A stretch of 64,000 nt of DNA. Source: Aromatoleum petrolei (lineage in GTDB: Bacteria > Pseudomonadota > Gammaproteobacteria > Burkholderiales > Rhodocyclaceae). A program made the translations under genes and the position numbers. The notes beneath the pieces are model-generated. The model did not search any database. It was not told the origin of the DNA and saw only the letters and a list, made by a program, of their open reading frames with translations. Below are positions 294-14,275 of this stretch, piece after piece. The first letter of the stretch is position 1, and every line of letters starts with the position of its first letter. The stretch lies in NCBI RefSeq assembly GCF_017894385.1, contig NZ_CP059560.1, positions 2,790,001 through 2,854,000 on the forward strand, written 5' to 3'.

Positions 294-362
294 GGCTAAC
301 GTGGAAATCACCGGACGGCAAAAGCGCAGCTTTTGACGGTCCGGTGCATTGCAGGGTTAGAA
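294..362 (-). repeat. attC site A
   Basis: Cores GGCTAAC (294-300) and GTTAGAA (356-362) flank an inverted repeat CACCGGAC...GTCCGGTG that contains an AAAAGCGCAGCTTTT hairpin tip. The GTTAGAA core matches the 5' core of the same cassette at 719-725, read on the other strand. Confidence 0.9.
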
Positions 363-471
363 CTTTTTTAACCAAGAGATATGCTTACACCGGAACATAC
401 CCTCAGATTTAACCCCTGTGCGCCTGCTTATTGGAGAAGGGATGCCGCCGGCTCAGGTAAAGAATGACGCG

Positions 472-687
472 CTATTCTTCTTTCAGAATGGATTCTACCG
501 ATCCCCCATTCGCTGCCTTGTAGCACTGGCGATAAAGTTTAAGCCAATAATCCTTGGTTTCTTGAGCGCCTCTGTCAGTTGCGTAGCATTTTTCGCCAAT
601 GAACTTCATTAGATCAAAGGCAACTCGTTGCTTTGCGTCACTGACAACGGAAACGGGACCAGATACGGATACGGATTCATTCGCCAT
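472..687 (-). CDS. 71-aa cassette protein of unknown function
   Basis: A small acidic-to-neutral protein starting MANESVSVSGPVSVVSDAKQ, with a central helix-like stretch (KQRVAFDLMKFIGEKCYAT) and ending in ESILKEE. The ATG at 687 is preceded by a GAGGT ribosome-binding site. It is the only gene between attC A (294-362) and attC B (719-785), so it is a complete cassette. About 110 bases between its stop and attC A contain nothing recognisable. There is no signal peptide, membrane segment or catalytic motif. Function is unknown. Confidence 0.7.
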   Translation of the reverse strand: MANESVSVSGPVSVVSDAKQRVAFDLMKFIGEKCYATDRGAQETKDYWLKLYRQCYKAANGGSVESILKEE

Positions 688-718
688 GATTACCTCGTGT
701 GGTTGTGGTCGGTGAAAG

Positions 719-785
719 TTCTAACGTCTGAGTTCACCGGCCTGCGCGGCTCTTTGCGCAGGTCCGATGGAATGACGGGTTGGGC
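719..785 (-). repeat. attC site B
   Basis: Cores TTCTAAC (719-725) and GTTGGGC (779-785) flank an inverted repeat built on CACCGGCCTGCGC / GCGCAGGTCCG. It is closely similar in sequence to attC H (5209-5275), so these two form one attC subfamily. Confidence 0.9.
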
Positions 786-787
786 CT

Positions 788-1216
788 CTACGCGGCCTTT
801 GCCTGGGCGGCCTGATCCTGGGTTTCCATGAACACTCGGCGAAAGCTCATTGGATTTGAAATGCCAGGGATTGGCGCTTGCGGGTTGCCGGCACCGGAGA
901 CCACCAGCGAGCCGAAATTGAAGATGCGCCCAAGAATGCCTTGGTTAACTTGGATGCTCTCGACCTTGTTGATATTGAGTTCGATGGTCTGACGGCTGAT
1001 GAAGCCGAACTTGGCGATGACTCGCTTGTTCGTTACGGCAAGCTCGGTCGTCTTGTAACGGACGAAGGCGACCAGCCAGAAAATTAAACCAAGACCATAC
1101 AAGGCCAGAAACAGAAGGCCCAGAAGAATTAGCGGCGCAAGGGACCACAAGCTGATGTTTCCGGTATAAACAACCTTCTCGTCCTTGATGAGCGCGCCGT
1201 CGATGTAGCTTGCCAT
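788..1216 (-). CDS. Bacterial PH-domain (YdbT/bPH_2-like) membrane protein
   Basis: A 142-aa protein. I chose the ATG at 1216 (MASYIDGALI) because an AAGGGAG ribosome-binding site precedes it; an in-frame upstream start at 1279 would overlap the next attC. Residues about 25-52 form a hydrophobic membrane hairpin. The remainder carries the bacterial PH-domain signature: TTELAVTNKRVI, then GFISRQTIELNINKVESI, then NQGILGRIFNFGSLVVSGAG. Proteins of this family are small membrane-anchored PH-fold proteins, mostly of unknown role. It is a complete cassette between attC B and attC C. The fold is confident, the function is not. Confidence 0.85.
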   Translation of the reverse strand: MASYIDGALIKDEKVVYTGNISLWSLAPLILLGLLFLALYGLGLIFWLVAFVRYKTTELAVTNKRVIAKFGFISRQTIELNINKVESIQVNQGILGRIFNFGSLVVSGAGNPQAPIPGISNPMSFRRVFMETQDQAAQAKAA

Positions 1217-1266
1217 GTAGTTACTCCCTTTCTTGGTTGAAATGCGAACGGTGTTACGAATAAGAG

Positions 1267-1360
1267 GCCCAACGTTCAAAGTGAGGGGCAGCCGGAGCGC
1301 GAAGCGCGGAGGGGACCAAAAGCGTAGCTTTTGGCTGTCCCCTCGACTGCCGAGTTAGGC
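1267..1360 (-). repeat. attC site C
   Basis: Cores GCCCAAC (1267-1273) and GTTAGGC (1354-1360) enclose a 94-base site with GAGGGGCAGCC...GGCTGTCCCCTC pairing and an inner AAAAGCGTAGCTTTT hairpin. The TAA stop of the next gene is formed by bases of the GTTAGGC core. Confidence 0.9.
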
Positions 1361-2437
1361 ATTTCTATTGGCAAGCAAAGACTCCTTCAATTCATGGGCA
1401 GTCAATTGCACTTGGCTACCAACACACATTGCCACATCCAGTGCAAAGTGAACACTTTCCATGACTTGATCGCTCGCACCTGCAGAAATCAGAAACTCCA
1501 GAGCAAATCTAAAACGCTCTTCATTCGACGGGTGTGAGTTGCTCTCTTGTGTTTCGGTGAATAGGATTGCCTTGGTTTGTTCGCAGGTACGAAGTGCATA
1601 GAAAAGTAAAAGCGGACCAATCAGCTGAAATGCAAAGGCATTGCTCTCGCGAACTCCATACTCAGTGCAGACGGCAAGTCCTACAGCGTCACAGTCGAGT
1701 TCATGGTGCTTGGAATCTGCCCCATCTGGAATGCCACAAGTATCAGGATGCGCTTCATGAGAAATGAAGTGACCGAACTCATGACCAACTATGAACACCT
1801 CCATCGCGTTCAAGAGCAGTGTCCGAAACCCCAATAACTCATTCGGTTGCTCTATTCGACCAAACCCAAGCAACGATTCGAAGCGGGCATAGTGCACAGC
1901 AAGCCGGGTTGCATCGACCAATACCTGGCCCTTGCGTAGCTTAGCGATCACTGCCGCAGGGGACTCGCGTTCCTCATCGGGTAACTCCGCTACTTCAGCC
2001 ATTGCTGAAGAAAATATTTTTGCCCAATAGTTGCAGAAGGCAAAGGTACCTTGCCCTGCGAATAAGACATGCTCAAAAGAAGAAGGGAGAGCAGCTGGCG
2101 AAGGTTCGGCTCCCGGGGAGTTAACAAATCTGACGGCGAAGCGAGGGGCTAAGTCGTGAGCCTCACATATTTCAAGGACTTTCTTAACGAGCGGCTCGAA
2201 GATCTGCTTCGCAAAAACATTGTCATAGTCACCATGGTCCGTATGTCCCATGATCGCCTCCGCCCATCGGTTCGGAGTGTCTTCTGGCTGCTTGCTTATT
2301 TCCAAGAATTTTCTTGCTATAGAGGATCGATTTTCGTCGAACCACTCCTTCTGCTTATGCCAGAAGTCTTCAGAACCTTCACGAACCAGTTGGCGTTGGA
2401 AGTATTCGATGTAGCGATGGTGCTTCAAATGTTCCAT
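1355..2437 (-). CDS. HExxH zincin-like metallopeptidase in a cassette
   Basis: A 360-aa protein with the zinc-binding motif VGHEFGHFISHEAH (H219, E220, H223). A downstream acidic segment, HHELDCDAVGLAV (E246, D250), is placed and shaped like the third-ligand helix of gluzincin-type peptidases. No signal peptide is seen, so it is probably cytoplasmic. The N-terminal 200 residues are helical and unassigned. The ATG at 2437 has no clear ribosome-binding site and the stop codon is embedded in the core of attC C. It fills one cassette between attC C and attC D. Peptidase activity is inferred from the motif and the substrate is unknown. Zincins occur in toxin-antitoxin and phage-defence loci, but nothing here proves that role. 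Confidence 0.75.
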   Translation of the reverse strand: MEHLKHHRYIEYFQRQLVREGSEDFWHKQKEWFDENRSSIARKFLEISKQPEDTPNRWAEAIMGHTDHGDYDNVFAKQIFEPLVKKVLEICEAHDLAPRFAVRFVNSPGAEPSPAALPSSFEHVLFAGQGTFAFCNYWAKIFSSAMAEVAELPDEERESPAAVIAKLRKGQVLVDATRLAVHYARFESLLGFGRIEQPNELLGFRTLLLNAMEVFIVGHEFGHFISHEAHPDTCGIPDGADSKHHELDCDAVGLAVCTEYGVRESNAFAFQLIGPLLLFYALRTCEQTKAILFTETQESNSHPSNEERFRFALEFLISAGASDQVMESVHFALDVAMCVGSQVQLTAHELKESLLANRNA

Positions 2438-2453
2438 TTGGCGTAGTTGTAAT

Positions 2454-2510
2454 GCCTAACGTTTGAAATAAGCGGCGCCGTTAGGCGTCCGCTTGATTGA
2501 TGGGTTGGGC
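2454..2510 (-). repeat. attC site D
   Basis: The shortest attC in the array, 57 bases. Cores are GCCTAAC (2454-2460) and GTTGGGC (2504-2510), with the stem AAGCGGCGCC...GGCGTCCGCTT. On the minus strand the GCCCAACCCATCAATCAAGC side resembles the R''/L'' half of the well-known aadA attC. The stop codon of the next gene (2481) lies inside the site. Confidence 0.88.
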
Positions 2511-3194
2511 GTTATGCGACGGATCCGCACCTTCCCAGCGCGTATGCCAGGTCGTGAAGTCGAAGTTGTCCCTGTACCCGACTACGGCCGTGGCGGTCTC
2601 GACGATTAGGCGGTCTAAGTCCTGCATGACATCGCCGCCGGTAAGCACACCGACGATTGTTCCCCCGGTACCCGGTCCGCCAGGTTCGTGCTTTGCCCAG
2701 TGGAACTTGTACCTTTCGCGTACATATGCCTTGATATGGGCAGCGGCTCCACCTTTGCCGAAATGCTTGAAAGGATAGAACTCCGCAAGCTTCAACCAGA
2801 TGATTTCGTAGAAGTCCACGACGTCGTACGTGGACTTGCGCATTTCAATGGTGACGCCAGAGTCCCATCCCGGTTGCGCGATTCGATGTGCAATTGCCTT
2901 TAGCTCTGGGAGTGACTCAAAAAGGCGGACATCAGTAGGTTCGTCCAGCGAACGTCGAATATAGTCGTCAGGGAGTTCGTCCTTGAACTCCGTTGGAAGT
3001 GACTGTTCGGCTATTTTGTCGTTCCGCCTGTGGAGGGTAATTGCTGCGAGGGCGAAGGCAAGTGCCAGGGCACCGGAACCTGCCGCATACGAGTAGTCTT
3101 TGATGGACAAGAAGTACCAAAGGGCACCGGTTGCAAATATCCCGGAAGTCCACCAGCAGGTTTGGATCACCCAATCGGGTACTGTGCGATTCAT
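2481..3194 (-). CDS. Membrane-anchored cassette protein of unknown function
   Basis: A 237-aa protein from the ATG at 3194 (MNRTVPDWVIQT). A TTG in the cassette core at 3203 is a less likely start. Two adjacent hydrophobic segments, about residues 9-27 and 35-53, form a membrane hairpin. A cytoplasmic domain of about 180 residues follows, containing YEIIWLKLAEFYPFKHFGKG and a Gly-rich loop GGPGTGGTIVGVLTGGD. Only six bases separate the cassette core from the ATG, so translation may depend on upstream readthrough or a leaderless-like start. The stop codon lies within attC D. I do not recognise the family. Confidence 0.7.
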   Translation of the reverse strand: MNRTVPDWVIQTCWWTSGIFATGALWYFLSIKDYSYAAGSGALALAFALAAITLHRRNDKIAEQSLPTEFKDELPDDYIRRSLDEPTDVRLFESLPELKAIAHRIAQPGWDSGVTIEMRKSTYDVVDFYEIIWLKLAEFYPFKHFGKGGAAAHIKAYVRERYKFHWAKHEPGGPGTGGTIVGVLTGGDVMQDLDRLIVETATAVVGYRDNFDFTTWHTRWEGADPSHNAQPINQADA

Positions 3195-3197
3195 GAC

Positions 3198-3269
3198 GCC
3201 CAACGTTCGAGCTCAGCGGACGGCAAAAAGCGCAGCTATTTGACGGTCCGCTGGAGCGGAGTGTTATGC
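3198..3269 (-). repeat. attC site E
   Basis: Cores GCCCAAC (3198-3204) and GTTATGC (3263-3269), stem AGCGGAC...GTCCGCT and tip GGCAAAAAGCGCAGCTATT. It belongs to the same sequence subfamily as attC A, F and J. Confidence 0.9.
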
Positions 3270-3270
3270 T

Positions 3271-3906
3271 CTATTTGATAGCGGAAAGGACTTCTCGTTC
3301 TAGCGAGCCTGTTGCCACGCATTCGGTTGCTCGGCCATCAGCATTAGCCGCAAATGACGAGGTTCCTCCGGAATTAAATGAAATGCTGTCCGAGCCAGAC
3401 TGGGGAAAATTGTTTGCGACACTCCTAACTGTCTGCTGTCGTTGCACTACATAGCGAGTGTTTGCCGTTACTTTGGTTTGATTTGGACTCAACTCTTCAA
3501 ACACCAGATTGACGCGGCCATCAAGAGACATTTTGCGCTCGATAAAGAAGAGGCCATTCCCATTCATAACCTCATACGATTGCTGCGCCTTGGCCCCCGC
3601 GAAATCATATGTTCTCTCGCCACGAGCGTTCTTGACATACGAAGTCACCCTGCCACAGTCGATGTACTTCTCTGGATCTCCGCTATAGCTGATGTTGATA
3701 AGGCCTGATGATTTGTCGAGGTTATTGATAACAAAAAACTGCTTTCCGAGTTCCGGCACGCTTGCGTTCCATACAGCATCGCGAGGTTTGTCGATAATTT
3801 TGTAGTTTGCTGACGCGGGCGGCGGCGTGGTTGGACGAACGTAATCAATTTTCCCAGCACAGCCGGCGATAAGCAGGACAGTGACCATCAATGCGGTTAT
3901 TCTCAT
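3271..3906 (-). CDS. Cassette-encoded lipoprotein
   Basis: A 211-aa protein from the ATG at 3906 (MRITALMVTVLLIAGCAG). It has a short charged n-region, a hydrophobic core and the lipobox LIAGC, predicting processing by lipoprotein signal peptidase and anchoring to an envelope membrane. An in-frame ATG at 3945, inside the cassette core, would add 13 residues and obscure the signal peptide. The mature part is probably beta-rich and resembles small Gram-negative envelope lipoproteins, but I cannot name the family. It ends close to attC E and is a single-gene cassette between attC E and attC F. Confidence 0.8.
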   Translation of the reverse strand: MRITALMVTVLLIAGCAGKIDYVRPTTPPPASANYKIIDKPRDAVWNASVPELGKQFFVINNLDKSSGLINISYSGDPEKYIDCGRVTSYVKNARGERTYDFAGAKAQQSYEVMNGNGLFFIERKMSLDGRVNLVFEELSPNQTKVTANTRYVVQRQQTVRSVANNFPQSGSDSISFNSGGTSSFAANADGRATECVATGSLEREVLSAIK

Positions 3907-3941
3907 TGGTTGCTCTATCCGTAATTGGCTAATTGCGAAAC

Positions 3942-4013
3942 GCATAACGTTGGACGTGACCGGACGGTAAAAAGCGCAGCTTTTTGACGGTCCGGTTGGC
4001 GGACTTGTTATGC
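3942..4013 (-). repeat. attC site F
   Basis: Cores GCATAAC (3942-3948) and GTTATGC (4007-4013) with stem CCGGACGG...CCGTCCGG-type pairing around AAAAAGCGCAGCTTTTT. It is almost identical in layout to attC E. Confidence 0.92.
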
Positions 4014-4469
4014 GTTCTCACGATTCCAGTCTGCTCCCTTGTGTAGGTTTATCAGTTCTTCTTCGATGTAATTTCGTAGAGATTCGGGTTCGACACTGAC
4101 CCACGATATCTTTACCGCTCCACCCGCCTGAACATGTGAAATTATTTTCCAGAGCTTTGCTCCGGTTTTCTCGTTTTTCGTTATTAGGTGATTCCGAATT
4201 CTTTGGCGGGCAAGTTTTTTTGTTGTTTTACCAATGTATCGGAGAGTGAACTCATTGGTGTTCTTCGGGGCCGTGAAGATCGCATACACGTTGGCTGCGC
4301 CCGATACTGAATTGAGCAAGCCTTGATTCTCAGCATCGATCTGAGCCGCGTTCCACGGCGCAATGTTATGTGGTGAATACTTGACTGGCGTTCGCGCCTC
4401 TTCACTCAGAAGTGCGGCCTCCACGTCCGTCAAGAACTCTTCCAGACTCTGAAGTTGCTCATATTTCAT
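4008..4469 (-). CDS. GIY-YIG nuclease-domain protein in a cassette
   Basis: A 153-aa protein in which residues about 58-150 match the GIY-YIG fold. VYAIF (61-65) stands for the GIY strand, YIGKT (78-82) for the YIG strand, and R88/R90/H94 in LARQRIRNHL for the catalytic Arg/His helix. An acidic metal-site candidate lies in YIEEEL (134-139), and N149 is in the final DWN. GIY-YIG enzymes cut DNA in restriction, repair and homing. A free-standing short version carried as a cassette is compatible with restriction or defence, but the target is unknown. The stop codon lies in the core of attC F. Confidence 0.8.
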   Translation of the reverse strand: MKYEQLQSLEEFLTDVEAALLSEEARTPVKYSPHNIAPWNAAQIDAENQGLLNSVSGAANVYAIFTAPKNTNEFTLRYIGKTTKKLARQRIRNHLITKNEKTGAKLWKIISHVQAGGAVKISWVSVEPESLRNYIEEELINLHKGADWNRENA

Positions 4470-4487
4470 CAGCGCGTGGCCTTTAAC

Positions 4488-4575
4488 GCATAACGATTAA
4501 GCTAAGGGGCGGCAAAAAGCTGCGCTTTTTGACGTCCAGTGAGCGAAGCGAACGACCTTGAGCGCATTGTTATGC
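4488..4575 (-). repeat. attC site G
   Basis: Cores GCATAAC (4488-4494) and GTTATGC (4569-4575), 88 bases, with an AAAAAGCTGCGCTTTTT hairpin and an additional asymmetric GAGCGAAGCGAACGA segment on one side. Confidence 0.88.
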
Positions 4576-5205
4576 CCTTGCTCGTTGCCCCGGCTCTGGC
4601 AATGGGCGACGCTCACGGTAGCAGGTGTTTAATTCTTCGAAGGTTTCTCTGATGAGTTTGAAAGAGGAATTGGGGATTTCCATGCGCACCATAGCCGTGT
4701 TGCCAAATAGTGTTGGATACTCGAAAACAACGAATCCGCGCACTAGCTTCCAATCGTGCTGTCCGATGGCACCAGGCCACACCGCCCAGATGCCCATGGT
4801 CTTTGGCGGAAGGACTTTGCTGTGGGGATTGCTGTCTTCTTCCAAAGCCCCCTTAGAAATGAAGGTGCGCTTGAACTTTGGACGCACAACTTCATTAGAC
4901 AACGGCGTTTGGAAGAGTCCGTGCTTTTCACTCGGGGTAAGTTCCATGTGCCATTTCTCTGCCACTAAGACTACGGACCAAACGCGAACGTACGCACTTG
5001 TGTAATTGTGGATTTGGATCGTGAACTCGGCAGAAAGCGGAGACAAGGAGTAGCCAACACCTACGCCATTTGGACTGATAGCGCTCTTGAGACTCCGTTC
5101 GAGCCTCAGATTGCGCCCCCAGCTATAGAGCCAAGCCGCAAGCGCGAGCAGTGCCGCCGCAGAGAGCGCTGACAAGACATCCGACAAGTACGATGAAAAG
5201 TTCAT
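4570..5205 (-). CDS. Single-span membrane protein of unknown function
   Basis: A 211-aa protein starting MNFSSYLSDVLSALSAAALL. Residues about 8-29 form one transmembrane helix, after which LRLERSLKSAI begins a soluble domain of about 170 residues with several tryptophan-containing beta-like strands (VRVWSVVLVAEKW, GIWAVWPG). It could be an immunoglobulin-like or beta-sandwich domain, but I do not recognise it. It is a complete cassette between attC G and attC H, with its stop in the attC G core. Confidence 0.7.
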   Translation of the reverse strand: MNFSSYLSDVLSALSAAALLALAAWLYSWGRNLRLERSLKSAISPNGVGVGYSLSPLSAEFTIQIHNYTSAYVRVWSVVLVAEKWHMELTPSEKHGLFQTPLSNEVVRPKFKRTFISKGALEEDSNPHSKVLPPKTMGIWAVWPGAIGQHDWKLVRGFVVFEYPTLFGNTAMVRMEIPNSSFKLIRETFEELNTCYRERRPLPEPGQRARA

Positions 5206-5208
5206 ATA

Positions 5209-5275
5209 GCATAACGTTTGAATTCACCGGACTGCGCGGCTTCTCGCGCAGGTCCGGTGGAATGATGGGTTGGGC
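5209..5275 (-). repeat. attC site H
   Basis: Cores GCATAAC (5209-5215) and GTTGGGC (5269-5275). The stem CACCGGACTGCGC...GCGCAGGTCCGGTG is near-identical to attC B. Confidence 0.92.
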
Positions 5276-5281
5276 GTCTGC

Positions 5282-5731
5282 TCACGGGCGCACCTGCGCA
5301 AGCTCGCCGTGAAAGATAGCGTTGCCCTCGATGGCCGCATTTTCAAATAGCTGCGCGGCTTGATCGACTTCGGAAATTGGCCACTCGACTCCACCACCGC
5401 CAAGCTGTTGCTGTCCATCCTGGGCGGTGTAAGGATGCGCATGGAGTAGCTTGTTTCTGCTTCGGATAGCGGCAAGATACGACTCGTGAAATTTGATGAG
5501 ACGCTTACGTAGCGGAGCAGGTAATGGCGGGGACGTGTTTTCAATTGCCTTGAAAAGGGCCGTAGCGATGACTTTCGCTGTTTCGCCACGAGGAACGCTG
5601 GCAAAACCATCGGCGCTCAGTTTGACGATTGTCCAAACTACGACCCACTCAAGGTACGTGAAGTTGTAGAACGCTGTGCCTACGGAATGAATGTATGTCG
5701 GATCGACAGGAATGCGGGATTGGTAGGCCAT
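5282..5731 (-). CDS. HEPN-like cassette protein
   Basis: A 149-aa protein from the ATG at 5731 (MAYQSRIPVDPTYIHS). A longer in-frame start at 5803 would lie in the attC I stem and is rejected. The helical C-terminal half contains RNKLLH (R92 to H97), the Rx4H motif that forms the RNA-cleaving site of HEPN ribonucleases, preceded by the helix LRKRLIKFHESYLAAI. HEPN proteins are common toxins and antiviral RNases, but many small helical proteins carry a similar motif. No MNT-type antitoxin partner is present, since the cassette holds this one gene. Confidence 0.6.
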   Translation of the reverse strand: MAYQSRIPVDPTYIHSVGTAFYNFTYLEWVVVWTIVKLSADGFASVPRGETAKVIATALFKAIENTSPPLPAPLRKRLIKFHESYLAAIRSRNKLLHAHPYTAQDGQQQLGGGGVEWPISEVDQAAQLFENAAIEGNAIFHGELAQVRP

Positions 5732-5739
5732 ATCAAGAC

Positions 5740-5853
5740 GCCCAACGTCGGAGTTGACCGGCACGCACCGGCAAGGCGCCGCGAGACGTATGCTCCCGCG
5801 CACGGCTCGCGGCGCCTTGCCGGTGCGTGTCCGCGTCGAACGACCTGTTAGAC
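5740..5853 (-). repeat. attC site I, with long perfect stem
   Basis: Cores GCCCAAC (5740-5746) and GTTAGAC (5847-5853), 114 bases, the longest attC here. Its arms form a perfect 24-base inverted repeat, beginning CACGCACCGGCAAGGCGCCG on the left and ending GCGCCTTGCCGGTGCGTG on the right. This is much longer than any other stem in the array. Confidence 0.9.
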
Positions 5854-6546
5854 CTCACGCTCGCTCGGCCTCAGATCCATGAATGACAGTGTCGCTGGCA
5901 ACCACTTCTGGATCAAGTCACGCTCTGCTCGGCGCATGGTCACCCACATGGCTAACTCCCGTTGAAGGATGTCCCGCTCTCTGCACACGAGGACGCGCGT
6001 CGCGTTGCCCTTGTCATGGCCGCACCAATCAAGAAAATACAGGCTGAGAAACGCGGTGGCTGCATCCGCCACCTTCTTCCCGTCCTCATGCGTCCATTCC
6101 CGATTGTCCAGCGCGATCCCGAGTGCCTTTGTCGCGCCGTAATCCACGTACTGCTCTTCCCCGACCCCGGCCAAGGACCCCGGTTTCAGCTTGGGATGGA
6201 CGATGTGATCGCGGAGCTTGAGCACGTCGGCAGCCAATTCAGTTTCGCGGCAGCCGCGGTCAATGTGCTTGTTCGTTCGAGAAAAGAGGTAGTAGTCGAG
6301 CTTCGAGAGCGCAGGCAGCTTGTCTAGTTCTTCGAGAAGCCGTGTCGGGAGCGCCAGAGAGCCGATGCAGCTGTTAGATACGCACTCAAGAAGCAGCCCT
6401 GCGTTGGTAGCTGCGGATCGGGCAAAGGCACTACCCAGCCATGTCCCCTTGTTCTTCTCGCTCTGCTCCAAGAGAACCGCAATATCGACCACGAGCGTAA
6501 GTGCCCGCTGGTCAACGAACCGAATGTCTTGCACGCGCTTTGACAT
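5848..6546 (-). CDS. HEPN-like cassette protein, 232 aa
   Basis: A mostly helical 232-aa protein. The segment ADVLKLRDHIVHPKL contains R112-x4-H117, the HEPN catalytic pattern, in the usual context of a helix followed by HP. The N-terminal part has AATNAGLLLECVSNSC, a helix often seen in HEPN-related proteins with small cysteine-containing helices. The ATG at 6546 lies four bases from the cassette core and the stop codon lies in the attC I core. RNase or toxin activity is inferred from the motif alone. Confidence 0.6.
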   Translation of the reverse strand: MSKRVQDIRFVDQRALTLVVDIAVLLEQSEKNKGTWLGSAFARSAATNAGLLLECVSNSCIGSLALPTRLLEELDKLPALSKLDYYLFSRTNKHIDRGCRETELAADVLKLRDHIVHPKLKPGSLAGVGEEQYVDYGATKALGIALDNREWTHEDGKKVADAATAFLSLYFLDWCGHDKGNATRVLVCRERDILQRELAMWVTMRRAERDLIQKWLPATLSFMDLRPSEREV

Positions 6547-6549
6547 GAG

Positions 6550-6621
6550 GTCTAACGTTTGAGTTCAGGGGCGGAGAAAAAGCGCAGCTTTTTCGGAGTC
6601 CCCTGGAACGATTTGTTCGGC
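6550..6621 (-). repeat. attC site J, of the first cassette
   Basis: Cores GTCTAAC (6550-6556) and GTTCGGC (6615-6621) with stem AGGGGC...GTCCCCT and tip AAAAAGCGCAGCTTTTT. Its unusual GTTCGGC core is mirrored by GCCGAAC at 8174-8180, which fixes the right end of the reverse-transcriptase cassette. Confidence 0.92.
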
Positions 6622-6652
6622 GACACCACCACTATTTCATCGCCACGCGCGA

Positions 6653-8149
6653 TTAATAGGCCCATGCATTTTCTTTAAACAATTCAACTTCTTCTGGTTG
6701 AACCACTTCCATCGCCTCACCTGCATCAGCAATGACAATCTTGCTAACGTCTAAGGCTTTCTTGAGTGCATCGCTTGCGATCCAGCCGGACTCCCAGAGC
6801 TGAGGCGATGCCCCATTCACAATCTGACAAATCGGTTCGTTGCTTTCGAACTTGATGCCAACGGCCTTCGGTTGTGTGACGCGCTGCAGCCAAATCTCCA
6901 GGTAACCGTTGTATGGGACTCTTGCCATCTTCTCGCGCACTTTGGTCCACAAGCGCACTTTCTCTTCACTCGGTGCGAGTGAGATAAGGTGGCTCAGAAT
7001 GCCTGCCACGGCCGGAAACGTCGATGGCGAAACAAACGCAATATCTGTAGCGATCGCGACCTGCACATCAAGGTCGTCAGGAGCTTCAGTCTGCTTTGAA
7101 ACATTCGTGTGAAAATCACCAACCAACCGTCGTAACGCTCCGCTATTCGGAAACCGCTGACCAAAGGAATGTAGCCTCAAGAGCTGTTTTTGAATTGTCT
7201 TTGCGTTAGATGTTCCGAGGTCTTGTTGCTCAATGCCAGCCAACTTATCTGGCTTGATCGACCCTTCAACTACATTTCTGCAGGAGATTGTCTTTGACAC
7301 CCCGAGCCTCATCCCTACTGCCCGTAACTTATCGCTGACTATCTTTAGCACCGCTTCTGCGCGTTCGTCACTATTTGCAAAAATTCTATAGTCGTCCCTA
7401 TATCGGAGTACCCGGATGTCAGTGCTTCCTGTGAGCTCAAGATTAATCTGCTCATCGACGTATCCAAGGACGATCTCCGCGATGAAGTCCATAAGGACTG
7501 ACCCTTGCGCAATACCGTTGGTCTGTCCGTAACGACTGGCCTGGATATGGGAATCGATTTTGTTGCCAAGCAGAGCTTTATTGGTTTTTTCTTCCTTGGC
7601 TTTCGATAGGCCGTGCAGAGCCCATGCAATGCTATGGGTATACATAGAGCCATAGCAGTCAGTCACATCAGTATGAAGAAGATGACTGAACTCCAGCGAA
7701 TACGTCAGGGACCTTTGCTCAACGCTCTGCCACCAGCTTTTGATCTGAGTTGCGACGTCAGTCTGGTGATCAACCGACATCACCGGCGCGCTACAACAGT
7801 CAACCACACCGTCCTCAAATTCTTTGAGTCGCGCCCTTATGCTCGCCCAGTTTGCCTCCTCACAAATCAGATTCACTAACGAGACGTAGATGGCGGGGTG
7901 CAAAAGTTCATACGGGCGCCAAGCAAATTTTCCGTCCTTGTTCGCAATGAAGTTGTAATTCACGCTCGGAAATTCGTTGGGGTTTGCGTTCTTAAATTGA
8001 GCATAGTTCGCGCCCTTAAGAACCGCAGATACGTCATTCAGTATCGGCTCGAAACTGATGTATTTGGGCAGGTCCCCGTTGAAGTAGCTGCTGCCCTTCA
8101 GGAAATGGGTTCTTGCCTCGTCATTGGAAAGGTCAATTAATCGTTTCAT
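6653..8149 (-). CDS. Reverse transcriptase of the unknown/defence (UG/DRT-like) type
   Basis: A 498-aa protein with the ordered polymerase motifs of reverse transcriptases: FAWRPYELLHPAIY (about 75-88), DVTDCY with catalytic D161, GIAQGSVLMDFIAEIVLGY (212-230), RYRDDYRIF with D252/D253 (249-257), and RLGVSKT (281-287). There is no maturase or HNH endonuclease domain as in group II introns, and no msr/msd-like repeat structure is obvious. The C-terminal 200 residues are helical and unassigned. Stand-alone RTs of this build belong to the UG/Abi groups, several of which (DRT systems) block phages. I cannot assign a DRT number. It occupies the first, best-expressed cassette, with start at 8149 after AAGGAGATCTG. 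Confidence 0.85.
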   Translation of the reverse strand: MKRLIDLSNDEARTHFLKGSSYFNGDLPKYISFEPILNDVSAVLKGANYAQFKNANPNEFPSVNYNFIANKDGKFAWRPYELLHPAIYVSLVNLICEEANWASIRARLKEFEDGVVDCCSAPVMSVDHQTDVATQIKSWWQSVEQRSLTYSLEFSHLLHTDVTDCYGSMYTHSIAWALHGLSKAKEEKTNKALLGNKIDSHIQASRYGQTNGIAQGSVLMDFIAEIVLGYVDEQINLELTGSTDIRVLRYRDDYRIFANSDERAEAVLKIVSDKLRAVGMRLGVSKTISCRNVVEGSIKPDKLAGIEQQDLGTSNAKTIQKQLLRLHSFGQRFPNSGALRRLVGDFHTNVSKQTEAPDDLDVQVAIATDIAFVSPSTFPAVAGILSHLISLAPSEEKVRLWTKVREKMARVPYNGYLEIWLQRVTQPKAVGIKFESNEPICQIVNGASPQLWESGWIASDALKKALDVSKIVIADAGEAMEVVQPEEVELFKENAWAY

Positions 8150-8173
8150 TCGTCGACAGATCTCCTTGATGAC

Positions 8174-8273
8174 GCCGAACAGTTGTAGTAGACCGAATCG
8201 GTCAATATTGAAATATGCCGATTCGGCCTATTATCCGGTGCGGAACCGCGGCGCAGCATTATCGTATTCGGCT
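8174..8273. other. Array head: cassette 5' core and possible attI remnant
   Basis: GCCGAAC at 8174-8180 is the 5' core of the reverse-transcriptase cassette. To its right is a perfect 9-base inverted repeat, CCGAATCGG (8192-8200) and CCGATTCGG (8218-8226), separated by 17 AT-rich bases. A further half-like copy, ATTCGGCT, starts at 8266. Repeats next to the first cassette are what an attI site would show, but the sequence does not match an attI I know, so this is a candidate only. Confidence 0.5.
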
Positions 8274-8292
8274 AAACGTTCGTCATCACGTG

Positions 8293-8321
8293 ACCATAGG
8301 CCACCGCTATGGTGTTGTCAA
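8293..8321 (-). promoter_or_regulatory. Candidate cassette promoter (Pc-like) with dyad
   Basis: On the minus strand TTGACA (8321-8316) and TATGGT (8298-8293) are separated by exactly 17 bases, a near-consensus sigma-70 promoter pointing into the cassette array. The expected start of transcription is near 8286, about 137 bases before the reverse-transcriptase start codon. A perfect 7-base inverted repeat, ACCATAG and CTATGGT (8313-8307 and 8299-8293), overlaps spacer and -10, so the promoter may be regulated. Confidence 0.65.
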
Positions 8322-8568
8322 TGCGCGACGGCCAGCCATCGCGAACGGGCGCATCCGATTGAACTCATTGGGAAAGTGAGGGGCGTCGGTGTGCGTCTCG
8401 CGGCGGGGGACGCCGCTTTGGGGCCGAGGTTGCTTGCGCGGATATTGTCGGCGGCGGTGATTTCAGGTGGTCGATGCGGAGGAGCCGCGCGGGGGAACGT
8501 CGCGAGATAGGCGGATAGTGTTTTCCGCCCGACGTCCGCAACGGCCCTTAGCATCGCCGCGTGCCCCG
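8322..8568. other. Gene-poor gap between eCIS operon and array promoter
   Basis: No supported gene was found. A 78-codon minus-strand frame (8318-8554) lacks a ribosome-binding site and recognisable sequence. A hairpin GCGGCG-GGGGA-CGCCGC (8400-8416) lies downstream of the last eCIS gene and might help end that transcript, but it has no U-tract on the minus strand. No tyrosine-recombinase remnant could be read on either strand. Confidence 0.5.
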
Positions 8569-11500
8569 TCAGAAAATCTGCTCGCCCAACTGCTCCACCA
8601 TCGCCGCCGGATCGACGTCCGGCACTTCGAACTCCAGATCGTCCAGTGACAAATCGAACGGTTCGCCTTCGCGGTAGGTGACCGGGAAGCGCACGCCGAA
8701 TTCGAGGCCCGATCCCAATTCGTAGGCGGCGAGTTCGAAGCGTTCGTCGTAGAGGCTGGCGCCGAGCACGGTGACGGCGACGTAGCCGGAGACGTCGAAG
8801 CGGAAGCTGGGTTGGGCGTGGAGGGAGGCTTCGGCGTCGATTTCGAGGCCCTGGGAGGGCATCCAGTCGATGTGCACGCTGGCTTCGGCCGCGCCGGAGA
8901 TGCCCAGCGTGCCGCCAATCTCCAGGCCGCCGGTGGCGCTGGCGCCGGTGATGCCGAGGCCGACGCCGGCGCGGGCGCCGAGTCGCAATCCGGCTTCGGC
9001 GGGGACGTTGAGGTGGGCGTCGCCGGTGACGTGGGTGTTTTCCTCGTGCGAGGGGTTGTATTCGATGCCGACACGCAGTTGGTCGAGGGCGCCGGGGCCG
9101 ATGCTGGCGTTGGCGCTGAGGTTGCCGCCGACTTCGGCGACGACGCCGGGGATGATGGGGATCTGCGTCGACATGCCGAAAAGGCGCTTGTCGTATTCGA
9201 GCTTGGAGAAGATCTCGAGCGAGCTGGGCAGGGCGATTTCGCCGGAGACGGTGATCTCGCCGTTGGGGTCGAGGCGGAGTCCCGCGGTGCCTTGCAGCCA
9301 GGGGGCGATCTGGATGGTGGCGGAGCCGCTGCCGTAGACGACGATGGGGGCGTCGGGGCCGCTCGGGGGGCCGCCGGGGTTGCCGTCTTCGCCGATGCTG
9401 CGGTTGGTGGCGCCGACGGTGATCTGGCCGGAGAGCATGCCGCGTTCGAAGGCGCCGCTGAACTGGGCGTCGAAGGCGCCGTCCTCGTAGGTGACGGTGA
9501 GCTGCGAGTCGAAGCCGGGGATGGCGGGTTCGGCGGTGCCGCTGGCGGAGACTTTCCAGTCGCCGTCGGTCTGCTCGCATTCGACGTGGATGGAGCCGGA
9601 GCGGATCGCGGGGTTGGCGGTGAGGGCGACGTCGCCGGCGATGTTGAGGCCGTTTTCGCCCTGGGTGATGGCGATGGAGGCGGCGCTGACGCCGGGCACG
9701 GAGAGTTCGGCGCTGCCGTTGAAGGCCCAGCGGCCTTCGTTGACGCTGACGGTCGCGGTGGCGCTCTTGATGCCGCGGATCTTGTCGGGGGTGTCGATGC
9801 CGATGGTGCCTTCGGCGCCGAACTGGCCGTTGCGCCACCAGGCGCTGACGCGGGCGCGGTCGAAGAGGGAGCGTTCGAAGGTGAAGCCGCCTTCGAAGGC
9901 GACGCCGCCGGTGGTCGACACGGAGGCGGCGAGTTCGCCGCTGCCGGCGCCTTCGATGGAGTAGATGACCTGGCCGCCGAGGCCCAGGCCGCGCGCGGTG
10001 GAGTAGAAGACGCTGACGTAGGCGTCGTCGATGGTGGTGCGCGGGATGGGCAGGCTGATCTGCTCGGGGCCGTAGTCGAGCGAGAACGTGAGGTCCTTGC
10101 CGCGCAGGCGCACGGTGATCGGGGCGTTGAGCAGCGGGATCGAGGGGGTGAGCTCGCCGTCGGCGGAGAGTTCGCCGTCTTCGGTGGTGATGGTGGTGAA
10201 GCTGACCGGGCTGAGCTTGGCGTATTCGAGGTTGAGCGCGGGCAGCGCGGAGGGGTAGCCGCGGTATTCGCCGTCGCCGGTGAGGGCGATGGTGACCGCC
10301 GGGGTGGCGGGCTGCCAGTCGGCGGGGAGGTCCCATTCGGCGGAGAGCGAGCCGACCGGGCCTTCGGGGTTGCCGGTGTTGTCGGTGAGGTTGAGCGCGG
10401 TGATCCGGAGGCCGGCGAGCGCGCGCGCCTGCGTGCGGCTGATGCTCGGCGCGGCGCCGGGGCGGTGGCGGAAGCGGGCGACTTCGATTCCGCCGGGGCC
10501 GGAGCTGAGGATGAATTCCTCGGCGGTGCCGGCCGTGTCGTTGTCCTCGGCGGCGTTGGGCGGGCTGGCGGTGGCGAGCGGCTGGGCTTCCTCGATCTCG
10601 GTCTTGGTCCACCACGCGGAGGCGCCCGCGGCGGAGCCTCCGCCGGTGGCGGCGGCACTGGTGAAGACGACGTCGTGCTGGCGCAGGAAACGGCCGCGGT
10701 CGGGCTTGGGGTCGAAGGTGTCGAGGAAGGCGTCGACCTTGCGATAGATGCCGCTGCGGATGGTGCCGCCGGAGCTGCTGTTCGACGGCTGGTCGAGCAG
10801 TTCCATGTTCTCGACGCTGTTGCCGACGCCGGATCCCATCTGGCCGGAGACCTGCAGCTCGACGATGTGATCCACCTGGAACTGCGCGACCTTGCGGCCG
10901 CGGCGGTCCCAGCCGGGGATGCGCAGCATCGTCTGCAGCTCCGACAGGCGCTTGGACGTGAGGCGCGCGCCGCGGTGGGGCTTGAGGCGGATGCGGCCGT
11001 TGGCGTCGGCGGGGACAGGAATGTTGCGTTCGCCCAGGCGTGCGCGGATGGCGTCGGCGCCGACCTGGACCTGGCTGTTCCACACCGAGCGCTGGTCGGC
11101 GCCTTCGCGCCCGTAGCCGCGCACGCGCTTGAGGTTGCCGGCGCCGGCGAGGCTGCTGTAGAGCGGCAGGTGGCGTGACTTGACGGCGGGGATCTCGAGG
11201 CGTTCGAGCGCGGCGAGGGCGGCGGCGGTGCGATCGGTCTCGTGGTAGCGGGCGTTCATCGCCGGCTCGATCGCGCGCGCAAGAACTGGCGCGGCCTGGC
11301 CGTCCTGCTGCACGACGTGGGCGAGCTCGTGGGCGAGGAGGTGGCGGCCGTCCTCGGTGTCCGGGGCGAAGGCGCCGGGGGCGAGGTAGATGTCGCGCCC
11401 GGAGGTGAAGGCGCGTGCGCCCAGCGCGGCGGTGAGGCGGGCGGCCTCGGCGTCGGTGTGGACGCGCACGTCGGCGAAGTCGCGGCCGAAGTGGCCTTCG

Positions 11501-11979
11501 AGCGGGGCGCGGGCGTCGGGTGCGAGCGGTTCTCCGCGGCCGCGGCGTTCGGCGACGCGGCCCGCGGCGTAGGCGGGGACTAGTGTGGCAGATGAGGTGG
11601 CAGATGAGGCTGCGGTGGCGCCGCCGCCCGTCGGGGTGGCGGGGGATGCGGCCGCGGCGTCGGGTGCGGACGGGGCGGCGTCGGTTTCGCCCGATGCCGG
11701 GGCGGCGGTCGGCGGGGTGGCCGCGGTCGGCGTGGGGTCGGGCGTGCTCGCGGGGGCGACGGCGGCGGCGTGCGCCTCGGCCTCGCGTTCGATGGCTTCG
11801 CCGGGCTGGCTGATGCGGACGGGGGGGCTGGCGTAGGCGGGCAGCGCCGGGGGCGGGGCCGGCCTCGCCGCGGGGGAGGCCGCGGGTGTGGTCCCGCTGC
11901 TGCGCGCGGCCGCGTGCGGGGCAGGGGGCGCCGGCTTCTCGCTCGGCCGACGCGCGAATTTAGGCGACGGCGCTTCCAT
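8569..11979 (-). CDS. DUF4157 eCIS cargo protein with HNH-like nuclease motif and beta-rich C-terminus
   Basis: An 1136-aa protein from the ATG at 11979, overlapping the upstream gene by 20 bases. Residues 1-135 are Pro/Ala-rich and disordered. Residues about 150-230 are the DUF4157 domain (FADVRVHTDAEAARLT, then HLLAHELAHVVQQ with H217-E218-H221). Residues about 360-405 read VAQFQVDHIVELQ (D370, H371), then GNSVENMELLD (N391) and N400, the D-H...N...N layout of HNH/colicin-like nucleases. From about 430 to the end come roughly 700 residues of repeated Gly-rich beta strands such as GGVAFEGGFTFERS. DUF4157 marks proteins loaded by eCIS, so this is probably a nuclease effector. Nuclease activity is inferred. 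Confidence 0.8.
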   Translation of the reverse strand: MEAPSPKFARRPSEKPAPPAPHAAARSSGTTPAASPAARPAPPPALPAYASPPVRISQPGEAIEREAEAHAAAVAPASTPDPTPTAATPPTAAPASGETDAAPSAPDAAAASPATPTGGGATAASSATSSATLVPAYAAGRVAERRGRGEPLAPDARAPLEGHFGRDFADVRVHTDAEAARLTAALGARAFTSGRDIYLAPGAFAPDTEDGRHLLAHELAHVVQQDGQAAPVLARAIEPAMNARYHETDRTAAALAALERLEIPAVKSRHLPLYSSLAGAGNLKRVRGYGREGADQRSVWNSQVQVGADAIRARLGERNIPVPADANGRIRLKPHRGARLTSKRLSELQTMLRIPGWDRRGRKVAQFQVDHIVELQVSGQMGSGVGNSVENMELLDQPSNSSSGGTIRSGIYRKVDAFLDTFDPKPDRGRFLRQHDVVFTSAAATGGGSAAGASAWWTKTEIEEAQPLATASPPNAAEDNDTAGTAEEFILSSGPGGIEVARFRHRPGAAPSISRTQARALAGLRITALNLTDNTGNPEGPVGSLSAEWDLPADWQPATPAVTIALTGDGEYRGYPSALPALNLEYAKLSPVSFTTITTEDGELSADGELTPSIPLLNAPITVRLRGKDLTFSLDYGPEQISLPIPRTTIDDAYVSVFYSTARGLGLGGQVIYSIEGAGSGELAASVSTTGGVAFEGGFTFERSLFDRARVSAWWRNGQFGAEGTIGIDTPDKIRGIKSATATVSVNEGRWAFNGSAELSVPGVSAASIAITQGENGLNIAGDVALTANPAIRSGSIHVECEQTDGDWKVSASGTAEPAIPGFDSQLTVTYEDGAFDAQFSGAFERGMLSGQITVGATNRSIGEDGNPGGPPSGPDAPIVVYGSGSATIQIAPWLQGTAGLRLDPNGEITVSGEIALPSSLEIFSKLEYDKRLFGMSTQIPIIPGVVAEVGGNLSANASIGPGALDQLRVGIEYNPSHEENTHVTGDAHLNVPAEAGLRLGARAGVGLGITGASATGGLEIGGTLGISGAAEASVHIDWMPSQGLEIDAEASLHAQPSFRFDVSGYVAVTVLGASLYDERFELAAYELGSGLEFGVRFPVTYREGEPFDLSLDDLEFEVPDVDPAAMVEQLGEQIF

Positions 11980-14275
11980 TGTCGCTGCCCGGTGTGGCGC
12001 CCGGCGGCGGGGTGCCCGGGTTCGTGCCGGGGGCCGGAGCGTTCGGCAGGTTCCAGTCGCCCTTGGGCGAGGGCGCGCCGCATTCCATCGCGACCTGCCA
12101 CTTCGGCTTGTGCAGGCCCAGCGACCATGGGGACTGGGCGGTGACGGTGGTGAGCGCGTTGTGGAAGGTGGCGTAGTGCTGCGGGCGGATCTCGTTGCCG
12201 CCGGACATGATGCCGCCATTGTGTTCGCGGATCGCGCCGGGCAGGTGGGCGCCGCTGGCGTCGGTCATGGCCTTGACCATCGCGTCGTGGCCGGTCGGGT
12301 CACCGATGTTGGTGCCGGCGGTGGTGTATTCGTCGACCAGCCCCAGTGCGTGGCCCCATTCGTGCAATGCGCCGATCTGGCGCTGGCCGCCGTCGACGAG
12401 GAGGTCGACGCGGCGATCCTTGGGGCGGTTCTTGTCGAGCGGGTCGGCTTCGGCGGCGCCGCGGGCGGCGACGTGCACGCGTGTGGGCACGTTGGCGAAG
12501 CCGTTGTTGGTGAGGAAGTCGCGCACGGCATTGGCGCGGGATTCGGACAGCGTCTGGTTGTGGCTGATGGTGCCGGAGCCGCTGGTGTGGCCGATGATGT
12601 CGACGCGGATCTCCTGGTGCGCGGCATTGGCGACCGCGCCGTTGTATTTGGCGATGAAGTTGGTGAGGGTGGTCTGGGCGGTGCCGTCGAGCACGGAGGA
12701 GTCGTGCGCGAACTCGACCGATTCGCGCAGGGTGTCGTAGAAGTTGGGTTCCAGGCCAGTGGCGGAGAGCTTCATGGTCTGGTCGCGCGCGTTGGCGTTA
12801 CCGCCGGGGTTGGTGGAGTCGACGGTGCCGAAGCTGGTGAGGTCTTCGCCCGAGGGCATCTTGTAGACGCGCGTGAACATGTGGTCGCTGGCGGCCTGGG
12901 CGCGCTTGCCGACGTCGAGGGTGACCTTCACTTCGGCACCAAGCCAGTTCCAGCGCGGCTTGTTGAGGAAGAAGCTGTGCTTGCCGCTCCAGCCGCCTTC
13001 AATGAGGGGCTTGAGCCTGTCGATCCAGGGTTGCTCTTCGGCGTTGTTCCACTGGTAGGCGCCGAGCGCCGTGGCGCGCTGGCCGGCGTCGGCGATGCCG
13101 TTGATGCGGGCTGCGAGGGCGGTGAGTTCGGGCGTGCCGCCGAGCAGCGGGTTGGGCGTGGCGACGCCGCCGGCGGTGGTGAGCAGGTCTTCGAACTGGA
13201 TGGCGACACCCTGCTTGATGTCGAGCACGCCTTCGCCTTCCGTCGCGTCCGGCTTGTACTGGGCGTCGAAGCCACCACGCCCGGCGGCACCGACCATGGT
13301 CTGCGCTGCGGCCGGATAGGGGCCGGCCTTGGCCCATTTCTCGGCCTCGCCGAGTTCCTTGTTGCACGCGGCCATCGGATCGGCGGGGGCGCCGCCGCCG
13401 CCGAAGAGATCATCCCAGAAGTCACGCTGCAGTTTGGGCGCGGCGCTCTGCGGGCCGCCGGCCGCGGCCTGCTGGCCGACGTGCGTGAGTTCGTGCGCGA
13501 GGAGTTCGAGGCCGGCGTCGCTCTCGGGGGCGTAGCTGCCGGCGGAGAAGTAAACATCGTTGCCGACCGTGAAGGCGCGAGCGTGCATCTCGACGCACAT
13601 CGCGTCGGCTTCGGCGTCGGTGTGGATGCGCACGGCGGAGAGGTCGCGGCCGAGCTGGGCTTCGAGCTTGGCACGCAGCTCGGGGTCGAGGGGCGTGCCC
13701 TGGCCCTGGCGAGCGGCGACGCGTTGTTCGGTTTCGGCGGGGGCGGTCTGGCCGGCGAGGGCGTCGGCGCCGGCGGTGGCGGTCTTGGGCGTGTCGGCCG
13801 CCTTTTCGGTGCCGGGGGCGGCCGGGGCCTTTTCCTCTTCGCCGGGCTTGGCTTCCCGTAGGAGCCGGGGCGCGAGGATCTCCTTCTTCGGCGGCGTGAT
13901 CGCGGGTTCGAGGCTGCCGCGCGGGGCGGCGCCGCTGCAGGTGGGGCATGCCGCGCCGGGGCCGGTGTCCTTCGGCGTGCGCAGCGCGCGGCGGACTTCG
14001 CCGGCGACCTGATCGGCTTCCTTCTCGGCGGGGTCGTCGGGGTGGCTGACGGCGAGCTTGGCCTGCAGGTAGCCGGGGGCGCCAGGGCGTTGGTCCTTTG
14101 AGGTGCCGCCTTCGTTCGCGGCTGCGGGCGAGGGGGCGCCGCCGCTCGCGCTCTGGTCGGCGGCCGGTTTGCCGCCCGGATCCTTCTGCCCGGCGGGTTT
14201 GGGGGCGGGCGAGGCGGAGGGTGGCTGCTTCTCGGGCGCGCTCTTGCGGCGCAGGCCGGGGGCGAGGCTGCTCAT
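11960..14275 (-). CDS. DUF4157 eCIS cargo protein with OmpA-like domain and second zincin motif
   Basis: A 771-aa protein from the ATG at 14275, whose ATGA overlaps the stop of the AAA+ gene. The layout is: disordered Pro/Lys-rich N-terminus (1-190) with a CPTC pair at 110-113; DUF4157 core (about 195-275) ending LLAHELTHVGQQ (H261-E262-H265); a linker region; an OmpA-like peptidoglycan-binding-type segment (about 518-628, with IIGHTSGSG and LSESRANAVRDFL); then LHEWGHALGLVDEY (H638, E639, H642) followed by GGIMSGGNEIRPQHY. The last part resembles HExxHxxG zincins with a Met-turn. It is probably cargo of the injection particle with a C-terminal protease. Peptidase activity and target are inferred. 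Confidence 0.8.
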   Translation of the reverse strand: MSSLAPGLRRKSAPEKQPPSASPAPKPAGQKDPGGKPAADQSASGGAPSPAAANEGGTSKDQRPGAPGYLQAKLAVSHPDDPAEKEADQVAGEVRRALRTPKDTGPGAACPTCSGAAPRGSLEPAITPPKKEILAPRLLREAKPGEEEKAPAAPGTEKAADTPKTATAGADALAGQTAPAETEQRVAARQGQGTPLDPELRAKLEAQLGRDLSAVRIHTDAEADAMCVEMHARAFTVGNDVYFSAGSYAPESDAGLELLAHELTHVGQQAAAGGPQSAAPKLQRDFWDDLFGGGGAPADPMAACNKELGEAEKWAKAGPYPAAAQTMVGAAGRGGFDAQYKPDATEGEGVLDIKQGVAIQFEDLLTTAGGVATPNPLLGGTPELTALAARINGIADAGQRATALGAYQWNNAEEQPWIDRLKPLIEGGWSGKHSFFLNKPRWNWLGAEVKVTLDVGKRAQAASDHMFTRVYKMPSGEDLTSFGTVDSTNPGGNANARDQTMKLSATGLEPNFYDTLRESVEFAHDSSVLDGTAQTTLTNFIAKYNGAVANAAHQEIRVDIIGHTSGSGTISHNQTLSESRANAVRDFLTNNGFANVPTRVHVAARGAAEADPLDKNRPKDRRVDLLVDGGQRQIGALHEWGHALGLVDEYTTAGTNIGDPTGHDAMVKAMTDASGAHLPGAIREHNGGIMSGGNEIRPQHYATFHNALTTVTAQSPWSLGLHKPKWQVAMECGAPSPKGDWNLPNAPAPGTNPGTPPPGATPGSDNGSAVA

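Follow-up and report, generated by a model that had tools for sequence, protein, structure and literature searches.

In the genome of Aromatoleum petrolei, an integron cassette array begins with a gene for a reverse transcriptase (RT) of the Abi-P2 type. We analyzed a stretch of 64,000 nucleotides (contig NZ_CP059560.1, positions 2,790,001 to 2,854,000; hereafter, the window), in which the RT gene is an intact open reading frame (ORF) of 498 codons on the minus strand (6653–8149), present as a single copy in the 5.41-Mb genome. A first-pass annotation of the window had described a stand-alone RT with a YRDD catalytic site as the first cassette of an integron; the ORF proved exact, and its place in the array is borne out by the evidence below. 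We consider it likely that the gene for an Abi-P2-family polymerase was captured as a single-gene cassette at the attachment site attI, that it can be expressed from a promoter-like site, and that its product would cause abortive infection through synthesis of single-stranded DNA (ssDNA).

The RT protein belongs to the Abi-P2-type family

We compared the RT protein with profiles, relatives and structures. The protein matches the Pfam domain RVT_1 (1.9e-11). An Abi-P2 profile scored it at 637.7 bits, covering profile positions 4–487 of 489, and the next family scored 164.7 bits; the same profile gave 530.4 bits for the P2-EC58 protein and 176.2 bits for a UG14 protein. In a tree, 25 rows assigned to the AbiP2 model fall together on one side of a branch with support of 84/74, recovered in 86% of 200 bootstrap trees; this support is modest, owing to a small outgroup (one UG14 row and two DRT8 rows) and very long branches. 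The structural model of the RT is predicted to have the palm, the fingers and the C-terminal helical domain of PDB 7r08. Abi-P2 was the best full-length structural match, in a comparison in which VIA-align 2 re-examined the matches from Foldseek and which thus covered the families on Foldseek's list. Other UG/Abi RTs (DRT6, DRT4, UG15, AbiK and AbiA) matched the model over 363–429 residues, most of its length. The catalytic residues D161, D252 and D253 are kept in all 78 aligned proteins, as is R251, and Y30, which aligns with Tyr61 of 7r08 (position counted by hand), is kept in 76 of the 78. From these results we conclude that the RT belongs to the Abi-P2-type family; the earlier pointer to antiphage RTs of the UG/DRT type was right at the family level by profile, tree and structure.

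The characterised Abi-P2 proteins are those of P2-like coliphages (orf570 of P2-EC30 and orf544 of P2-EC58; 7r08). The RT resembles them in full-length homology, in a fold that includes the C-terminal helical part, and in having both the catalytic aspartates and the priming tyrosine. By contrast, it is only 30–31% identical to them, it lies in a separate clade of proteins of about 498 amino acids, and it occupies an integron cassette, whereas the coliphage genes sit in a variable locus of the prophage.

It is extremely improbable that the gene is instead a group II intron, retron or diversity-generating retroelement RT that drifted into the array. The RT scores 39.9 bits against the NCBIfam group II maturase model (cut-off 300) and 25.5 bits against the NCBIfam retron model (cut-off 235), in agreement with the first-pass statement that maturase and retron features are lacking; there is no intron or msr RNA in Rfam, and the best full-length match is to Abi-P2. 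We rejected a group II or retron origin on the NCBIfam scores, the trees containing no group II or retron rows. The first-pass annotation had also named loss of catalytic residues in relatives as a sign against its proposal, and the aspartates are intact throughout the alignment.

The RT cassette, its array and its attI platform

We next located the attC sites of the array, using a pattern scan together with a covariance model trained on 18 sites, of which this genome supplied 14. The array contains 18 attC sites and runs leftward on the minus strand from position 6621 to genome position 2783348; 10 of the sites lie inside the window (Table 1), and the remaining eight lie to its left (genome 2783348–2789461). 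A cassette that is integrated in an array contributes the end box of the site lying upstream of it. The upstream heptamer is therefore expected to be the reverse complement of the first box in that cassette's attC. For the RT cassette, which holds the first position in the array, GTTCGGC at the upstream junction (8174–8180) is the exact reverse complement of GCCGAAC, the first box of its attC. Pairing was 7/7 for 15 of the 18 cassettes (cassettes 15, 17 and 18 paired at 6/7, 6/7 and 5/7), and 35 of 306 non-adjacent pairs also reached 7/7. By its matching heptamers the RT gene sits in a genuine integron cassette, and the attI core and the promoter-like site upstream uphold the earlier placement of the RT as the first cassette.

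Only 61 nt of the RT cassette lie outside the ORF and attC, which speaks for a stand-alone RT system. A conserved non-coding RNA (ncRNA) had been proposed in 8150–8180 or 6556–6652, and this was not supported: 8150–8179 is the 30-nt leader, 6556–6652 is spacer plus attC, and Rfam gave no match at the gathering threshold in the window and no match at E ≤ 1 in 6500–8600. We regard it as very unlikely that the RT acts like DRT2, DRT9 or DRT10 with an ncRNA template, which would have to come from the transcribed attC, from the leader at attI or from an RNA encoded elsewhere. Such a mechanism would fit the 143 nt between promoter and start codon, which fold somewhat better than shuffled sequences (z of −2.10, with 5 of 200 shuffles as good), and the attC transcript, which is a hairpin (z of −1.58, 14 of 200). 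An ncRNA adjoining the RT was rejected because these z-scores are weak, both Rfam searches were empty, and attI and attC explain the folding.

Upstream of the RT cassette, window positions 8169–8232 align over 64 bp, at 83% identity, with the sequence preceding the genome's own intI, and the attI core aligns over 55 bp, at 91% identity, with the attI beside intI in another genome of the genus, G015. In the window, 113 nt separate the end of the promoter-like site from the crossover. The corresponding distance is 114 nt for TTGACA-N17 followed by TATGTT, TATTTT or TATGGT at the three attI sites linked to intI, and also for the promoter-like pair at the orphan attI of genome G016 that has a flank of the window type. 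The other type of orphan attI has TTGACA followed, at N17, by a TAAGTT that was seen by eye and is outside the patterns accepted by the scan. A weaker promoter-like site lies at 8286–8258 of the window (two sites found, 0.2 expected in shuffles). No integrase gene lies beside the RT array; the sole intI over the TIGR02249 cut-off in the genome (4209968–4210897) is 1.4 Mb distant. Relative to a complete integron, the locus has attI before the first cassette but no intI adjacent to attI, and for a cassette promoter it offers a match to the consensus whose distance is conserved.

In lacking an adjoining intI, the locus resembles a cluster of attC sites without integrase (CALIN); it differs in retaining both a promoter-like site and an attI core, which other orphan platforms in the genus also retain. 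That the array is a CALIN formed by secondary-site insertion, with the RT first by accident and no attI behind it, is more improbable still than an ncRNA-templated enzyme. The absence of an adjoining integrase would suit such an origin, as would L013, the closest locus in other genomes, where the RT cassette starts with ATTCGGC rather than GTTCGGC. However, the match of 55–64 bp to attI of intI-bearing integrons reaches the crossover, the promoter-like site is at the same distance as in those integrons, and the same platform is present in G016 with 1161 bp of flank at 90.5% identity. This flank (8564–9724) overlaps an ORF of 1216 amino acids (8569–12219) that adjoins the attI platform.

A further alternative is that the cassette is genuine but the RT is silent, decaying or has a non-defence role, the gene having been stockpiled in an array that has no integrase of its own. 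We consider this unlikely. The lack of a nearby intI and a promoter that is only predicted are consistent with a stockpiled gene, as are the fellow cassettes, most of which have no matches: seven of the eight other window cassette proteins scanned had no Pfam match over the cut-off, none of the eight had an NCBIfam match over the cut-off, and PADLOC matched none of the nine window cassette proteins at E ≤ 0.01. On the other hand, the ORF is unbroken along its 498 codons, it retains all the catalytic residues that were checked, and it holds the first position behind a promoter-like site spaced as in intI-bearing integrons.

Other cassettes of the array also gave domain matches. The protein of the fifth cassette (4008–4469) has a GIY-YIG match slightly under the cut-off (21.9 versus 22.6 bits), a cassette to the left of the window encodes a TIR-domain protein of 146 amino acids (TIR_2, 6.5e-20; genome 2789456–2789896, L008:19456–19896), and the cassette protein encoded at L008:16194–17204 contains DUF2806 and matches abortive-infection-alpha below the threshold.

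Table 1. Positions in the window of the RT cassette, its attI platform and the attC sites of the array.
Feature	Positions	Strand	Details
RT cassette	6556–8179	minus	1624 nt: 30-nt leader, ORF, 31-nt spacer, attC
Abi-P2-type reverse-transcriptase-like polymerase	6653–8149	minus	498 amino acids; profile and structure comparison
YRDD catalytic motif	7391–7402	minus	residues 250–253; third catalytic aspartate is D161
attI core (orphan, no adjoining intI)	8178–8232	minus	crossover between G8180 and T8179
Cassette-promoter-like site TTGACA-N17-TATGGT	8293–8321	minus	ends 113 nt upstream of the attI crossover; predicted
attC of RT cassette	6550–6621	minus	78.9 bits (training-set site); also pattern scan
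attC, second cassette (ORF 5848–6546)	5740–5853	minus	pattern scan and attC model
attC, third cassette (ORF 5282–5803)	5209–5275	minus	attC model (training-set site)
attC, fourth cassette (ORF 4570–5205)	4488–4575	minus	attC model, 25.1 bits, E 0.0016
attC, fifth cassette (ORF 4008–4469)	3942–4013	minus	attC model (training-set site)
attC, sixth cassette (ORF 3271–3945)	3198–3269	minus	attC model (training-set site)
attC, seventh cassette (ORF 2481–3203)	2454–2510	minus	pattern scan and attC model (training-set site)
attC, eighth cassette (ORF 1355–2437)	1267–1360	minus	pattern scan and attC model
attC, ninth cassette (ORF 788–1279, bPH_2)	719–785	minus	attC model (training-set site)
attC, tenth cassette	294–362	minus	attC model (training-set site)

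attI platforms in the genus and RT relatives elsewhere

We searched the 17 genomes of the genus for an exact 15-base piece of the attI core. It occurs at nine places in six genomes: three in A. petrolei (the window, the intI locus and position 1400498), two in G016, and one each in G003, G004, G006 and G015. Eleven genomes had none, and a reversed control pattern gave no match. At three of the nine places (in A. petrolei, numbered G000, and in G006 and G015) intI adjoins the core. The platforms of A. petrolei itself are the window core, 4209401–4209464 and 1400494–1400552. Across the genus, the platforms (L097–L106 and the window) mostly lack an adjoining integrase and have differing first cassettes. 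The flank of the 1.40-Mb site is 86–93% identical in G003, G004 and G016, and at a G015 site without the exact core. Pairing at the boundary of the first cassette was 7/7 at all six other platforms tested (L101, L106, L102, L099, L097 and the array beside the genome's own intI); L100 and L104 have no attC in the available stretch, and L098 and L105, which have attC matches, lay outside the test. The attC of the second window cassette and one attC (L106:149–262) of the orphan array at 1.40 Mb are nearly the same, with 98.3% identity over 115 bp, as would be expected, on this indirect evidence, if one integrase acts on both arrays. At the orphan platform of G004, the first gene (L100:2–1492, open at the end of the stretch) encodes an AAA ATPase that matches OLD-like TOPRIM below the threshold, and is possibly a defence gene.

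The RT itself was found in none of the remaining 16 genomes searched within the genus. Of all 60 relatives searched, five gave matches, the best being 42% identical and from the same taxonomic order. At the G016 platform with the matching flank, the first cassette differs, encoding a 211-amino-acid protein with a sub-threshold HEPN match. The G+C content of the RT ORF is 49.3%; it is 52.1% for window positions 294–8179 and 70.4% for 8600–64000. The absence of the RT from the rest of the genus, the different first cassette in G016 and the low G+C content all support the first-pass view of a recently gained cassette.

Beyond the genus, at least 4470 proteins among 8000 scored matched the RT at E ≤ 0.001. 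The best 120 of these are 79–100% identical to it and 496–521 amino acids long, many of them on contigs shorter than 5 kb. In the genome collection, of which the best 80 of 86 places were kept, we identified 78 related RT loci, in Acidobacteriota, Chloroflexota, Cyanobacteriota, Planctomycetota, Bacteroidota and others. All but one of the 198 matching plasmid records are less than 60% identical to the RT, nine phage records match (including P2-EC30 and P2-EC58 at 30–31%), and viral contigs contain one matching locus, at 42%.

We scored an RT locus as cassette-borne if it had an attC within 200 nt on the same strand at E ≤ 0.05, or an attC-like hairpin together with an exact boundary match. By this measure 22 of the 78 loci are cassette-borne, comprising eight of 38 at ≥ 60% identity (L013, L015, L021, L022, L023, L025, L040 and L087) and 14 of 40 at < 60% identity (L053, L057, L059, L060, L061, L062, L064, L065, L066, L078, L081, L082, L083 and L090). 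Some of these loci had also served to train the attC models: 12 of the 22 are training sequences, chosen by hairpin scan or by eye from the flanks, L021 was counted solely from its hairpin and its boundary match, and nine (L023, L025, L040, L064, L053, L059, L062, L065 and L078) are independent of training, with L023, L062 and L078 reaching only E 0.01–0.03. One model, R1, has only five base pairs. Left uncounted were L020, L046, L056 and L058, whose attC-like sites do not combine ≤ 200 nt with E ≤ 0.05, and L014, L019 and L044, where remnants of cassette ends were seen by eye only. The other 56 of the 78 loci have no attC site or boundary by these criteria, in some cases where the contig ends close to the RT. 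A recognisable cassette is therefore the minority state among genomic RT copies.

The 7-mer boundary test covered 64 sequences with both flanks, including the window. Matches were observed for five of 34 sequences at ≥ 60% identity and seven of 30 at < 60% identity, and in each class shuffles gave a mean of 1.2 and a maximum of 6. Heptamers ending in AAC matched in 12 of the 64 sequences, and those ending in six other triplets in one to five. Since the test is weak alone, its matches were combined with the attC models. One of the 12 matches (CAAAAAC at L029) was judged to be chance, as no attC follows. In the tree of 78 rows, from which eight of the 86 available rows had been dropped as partial, cassette state changes at least 16 times for 21 cassette rows of 71, a count made without comparison with shuffled labels and excluding seven more of the rows (those for phages, plasmids, viral sequences and whole genomes). 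For 17 of the RT loci, the source genomes or records were searched for intI, and four have one over the cut-off, so that most of these genomes with an RT lack a complete integrase in the available sequence. Judged from these flanking sites, relatives of the RT gene occupy similar cassettes in other bacterial phyla.

Proposed activity and wider meaning

Abi polymerases synthesise DNA primed by a tyrosine, Abi-P2 was trimeric in solution, and resistance to T5 is conferred by orf570 of P2-EC30 (PMC9508834). Abi RTs synthesise without template or primer and have a typical helical domain, and their mode of defence is described as unclear (PMC11077055); class 1 UG/Abi RTs carry out template-free, protein-primed synthesis (PMC13275509). 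By homology, the A. petrolei RT, captured as a one-gene cassette at attI and expressible from the predicted promoter upstream, would form trimers or hexamers, prime on its own Y30 and make template-free ssDNA, and this activity would lead to abortive infection upon infection by certain phages. Expression of the cassette, DNA synthesis and phage defence are thus proposed by analogy, and we infer that the cassette was inserted by the distant IntI acting in trans.

Cassette-borne phage defence is established in V. cholerae, V. parahaemolyticus, mobile integrons and Xanthomonas, and the RT cassette resembles these as putative defence cargo in a cassette array. PMC12444791 reports Xanthomonas cassettes with twelve phage-defence systems, CALINs at several loci, and mobilisation of CALINs in trans as a possibility; PMC12409362 reviews integron defence in Vibrio. 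The RT cassette differs in that "reverse transcriptase" is absent from both texts; DRT and AbiP2 are also absent from PMC12409362. The open-access library searched gave no paper with AbiP2 and integron together, and in the papers it gave on Abi-P2 with reverse transcriptase the word integron is absent. The group II introns that PMC7923331 describes within arrays are a different matter from the RT cassette.

A broader reading, which we put forward tentatively and regard as doubtful, is that Abi-P2-type RTs are a recurrent integron cargo that passes between phyla as a complete one-gene immune system, and that the integron of this genus is multi-port, with one integrase serving several dispersed promoter-attI platforms.

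Several observations weigh against the proposed capture, expression and defence, and against the multi-port integron. At 30–31% identity to characterised Abi-P2 proteins, the activity and phage range of the RT may differ from theirs. The cassette promoter is a predicted consensus match, and no intI lies beside the array. According to PMC13275509, it is not known in what way the random ssDNA that class 1 RTs make stops phages. Lastly, the integrases listed over the cut-off in G003, G004 and G016 are open frames of 342 amino acids on contigs other than those with the orphan attI, as opposed to 457 amino acids in G000, G006 and G015. The orphan platforms of these three genomes (G003, G004 and G016) could therefore be relics, and supply in trans need not be general.

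If the multi-port reading is true, several cassettes could hold an expressed first position at once, here including the RT; and if the distant integrase uses the orphan attI platforms, the rule of one expressed first cassette per integron would fail in this genus. The RT cassette would add a polymerase to the kinds of defence gene stocked by integrons. A cassette is a natural minimal unit, and everything needed must travel in 1624 nt. An RT that spreads in this form supports the idea that enzymes of the Abi-P2 type can do without a partner gene and without a separate RNA.
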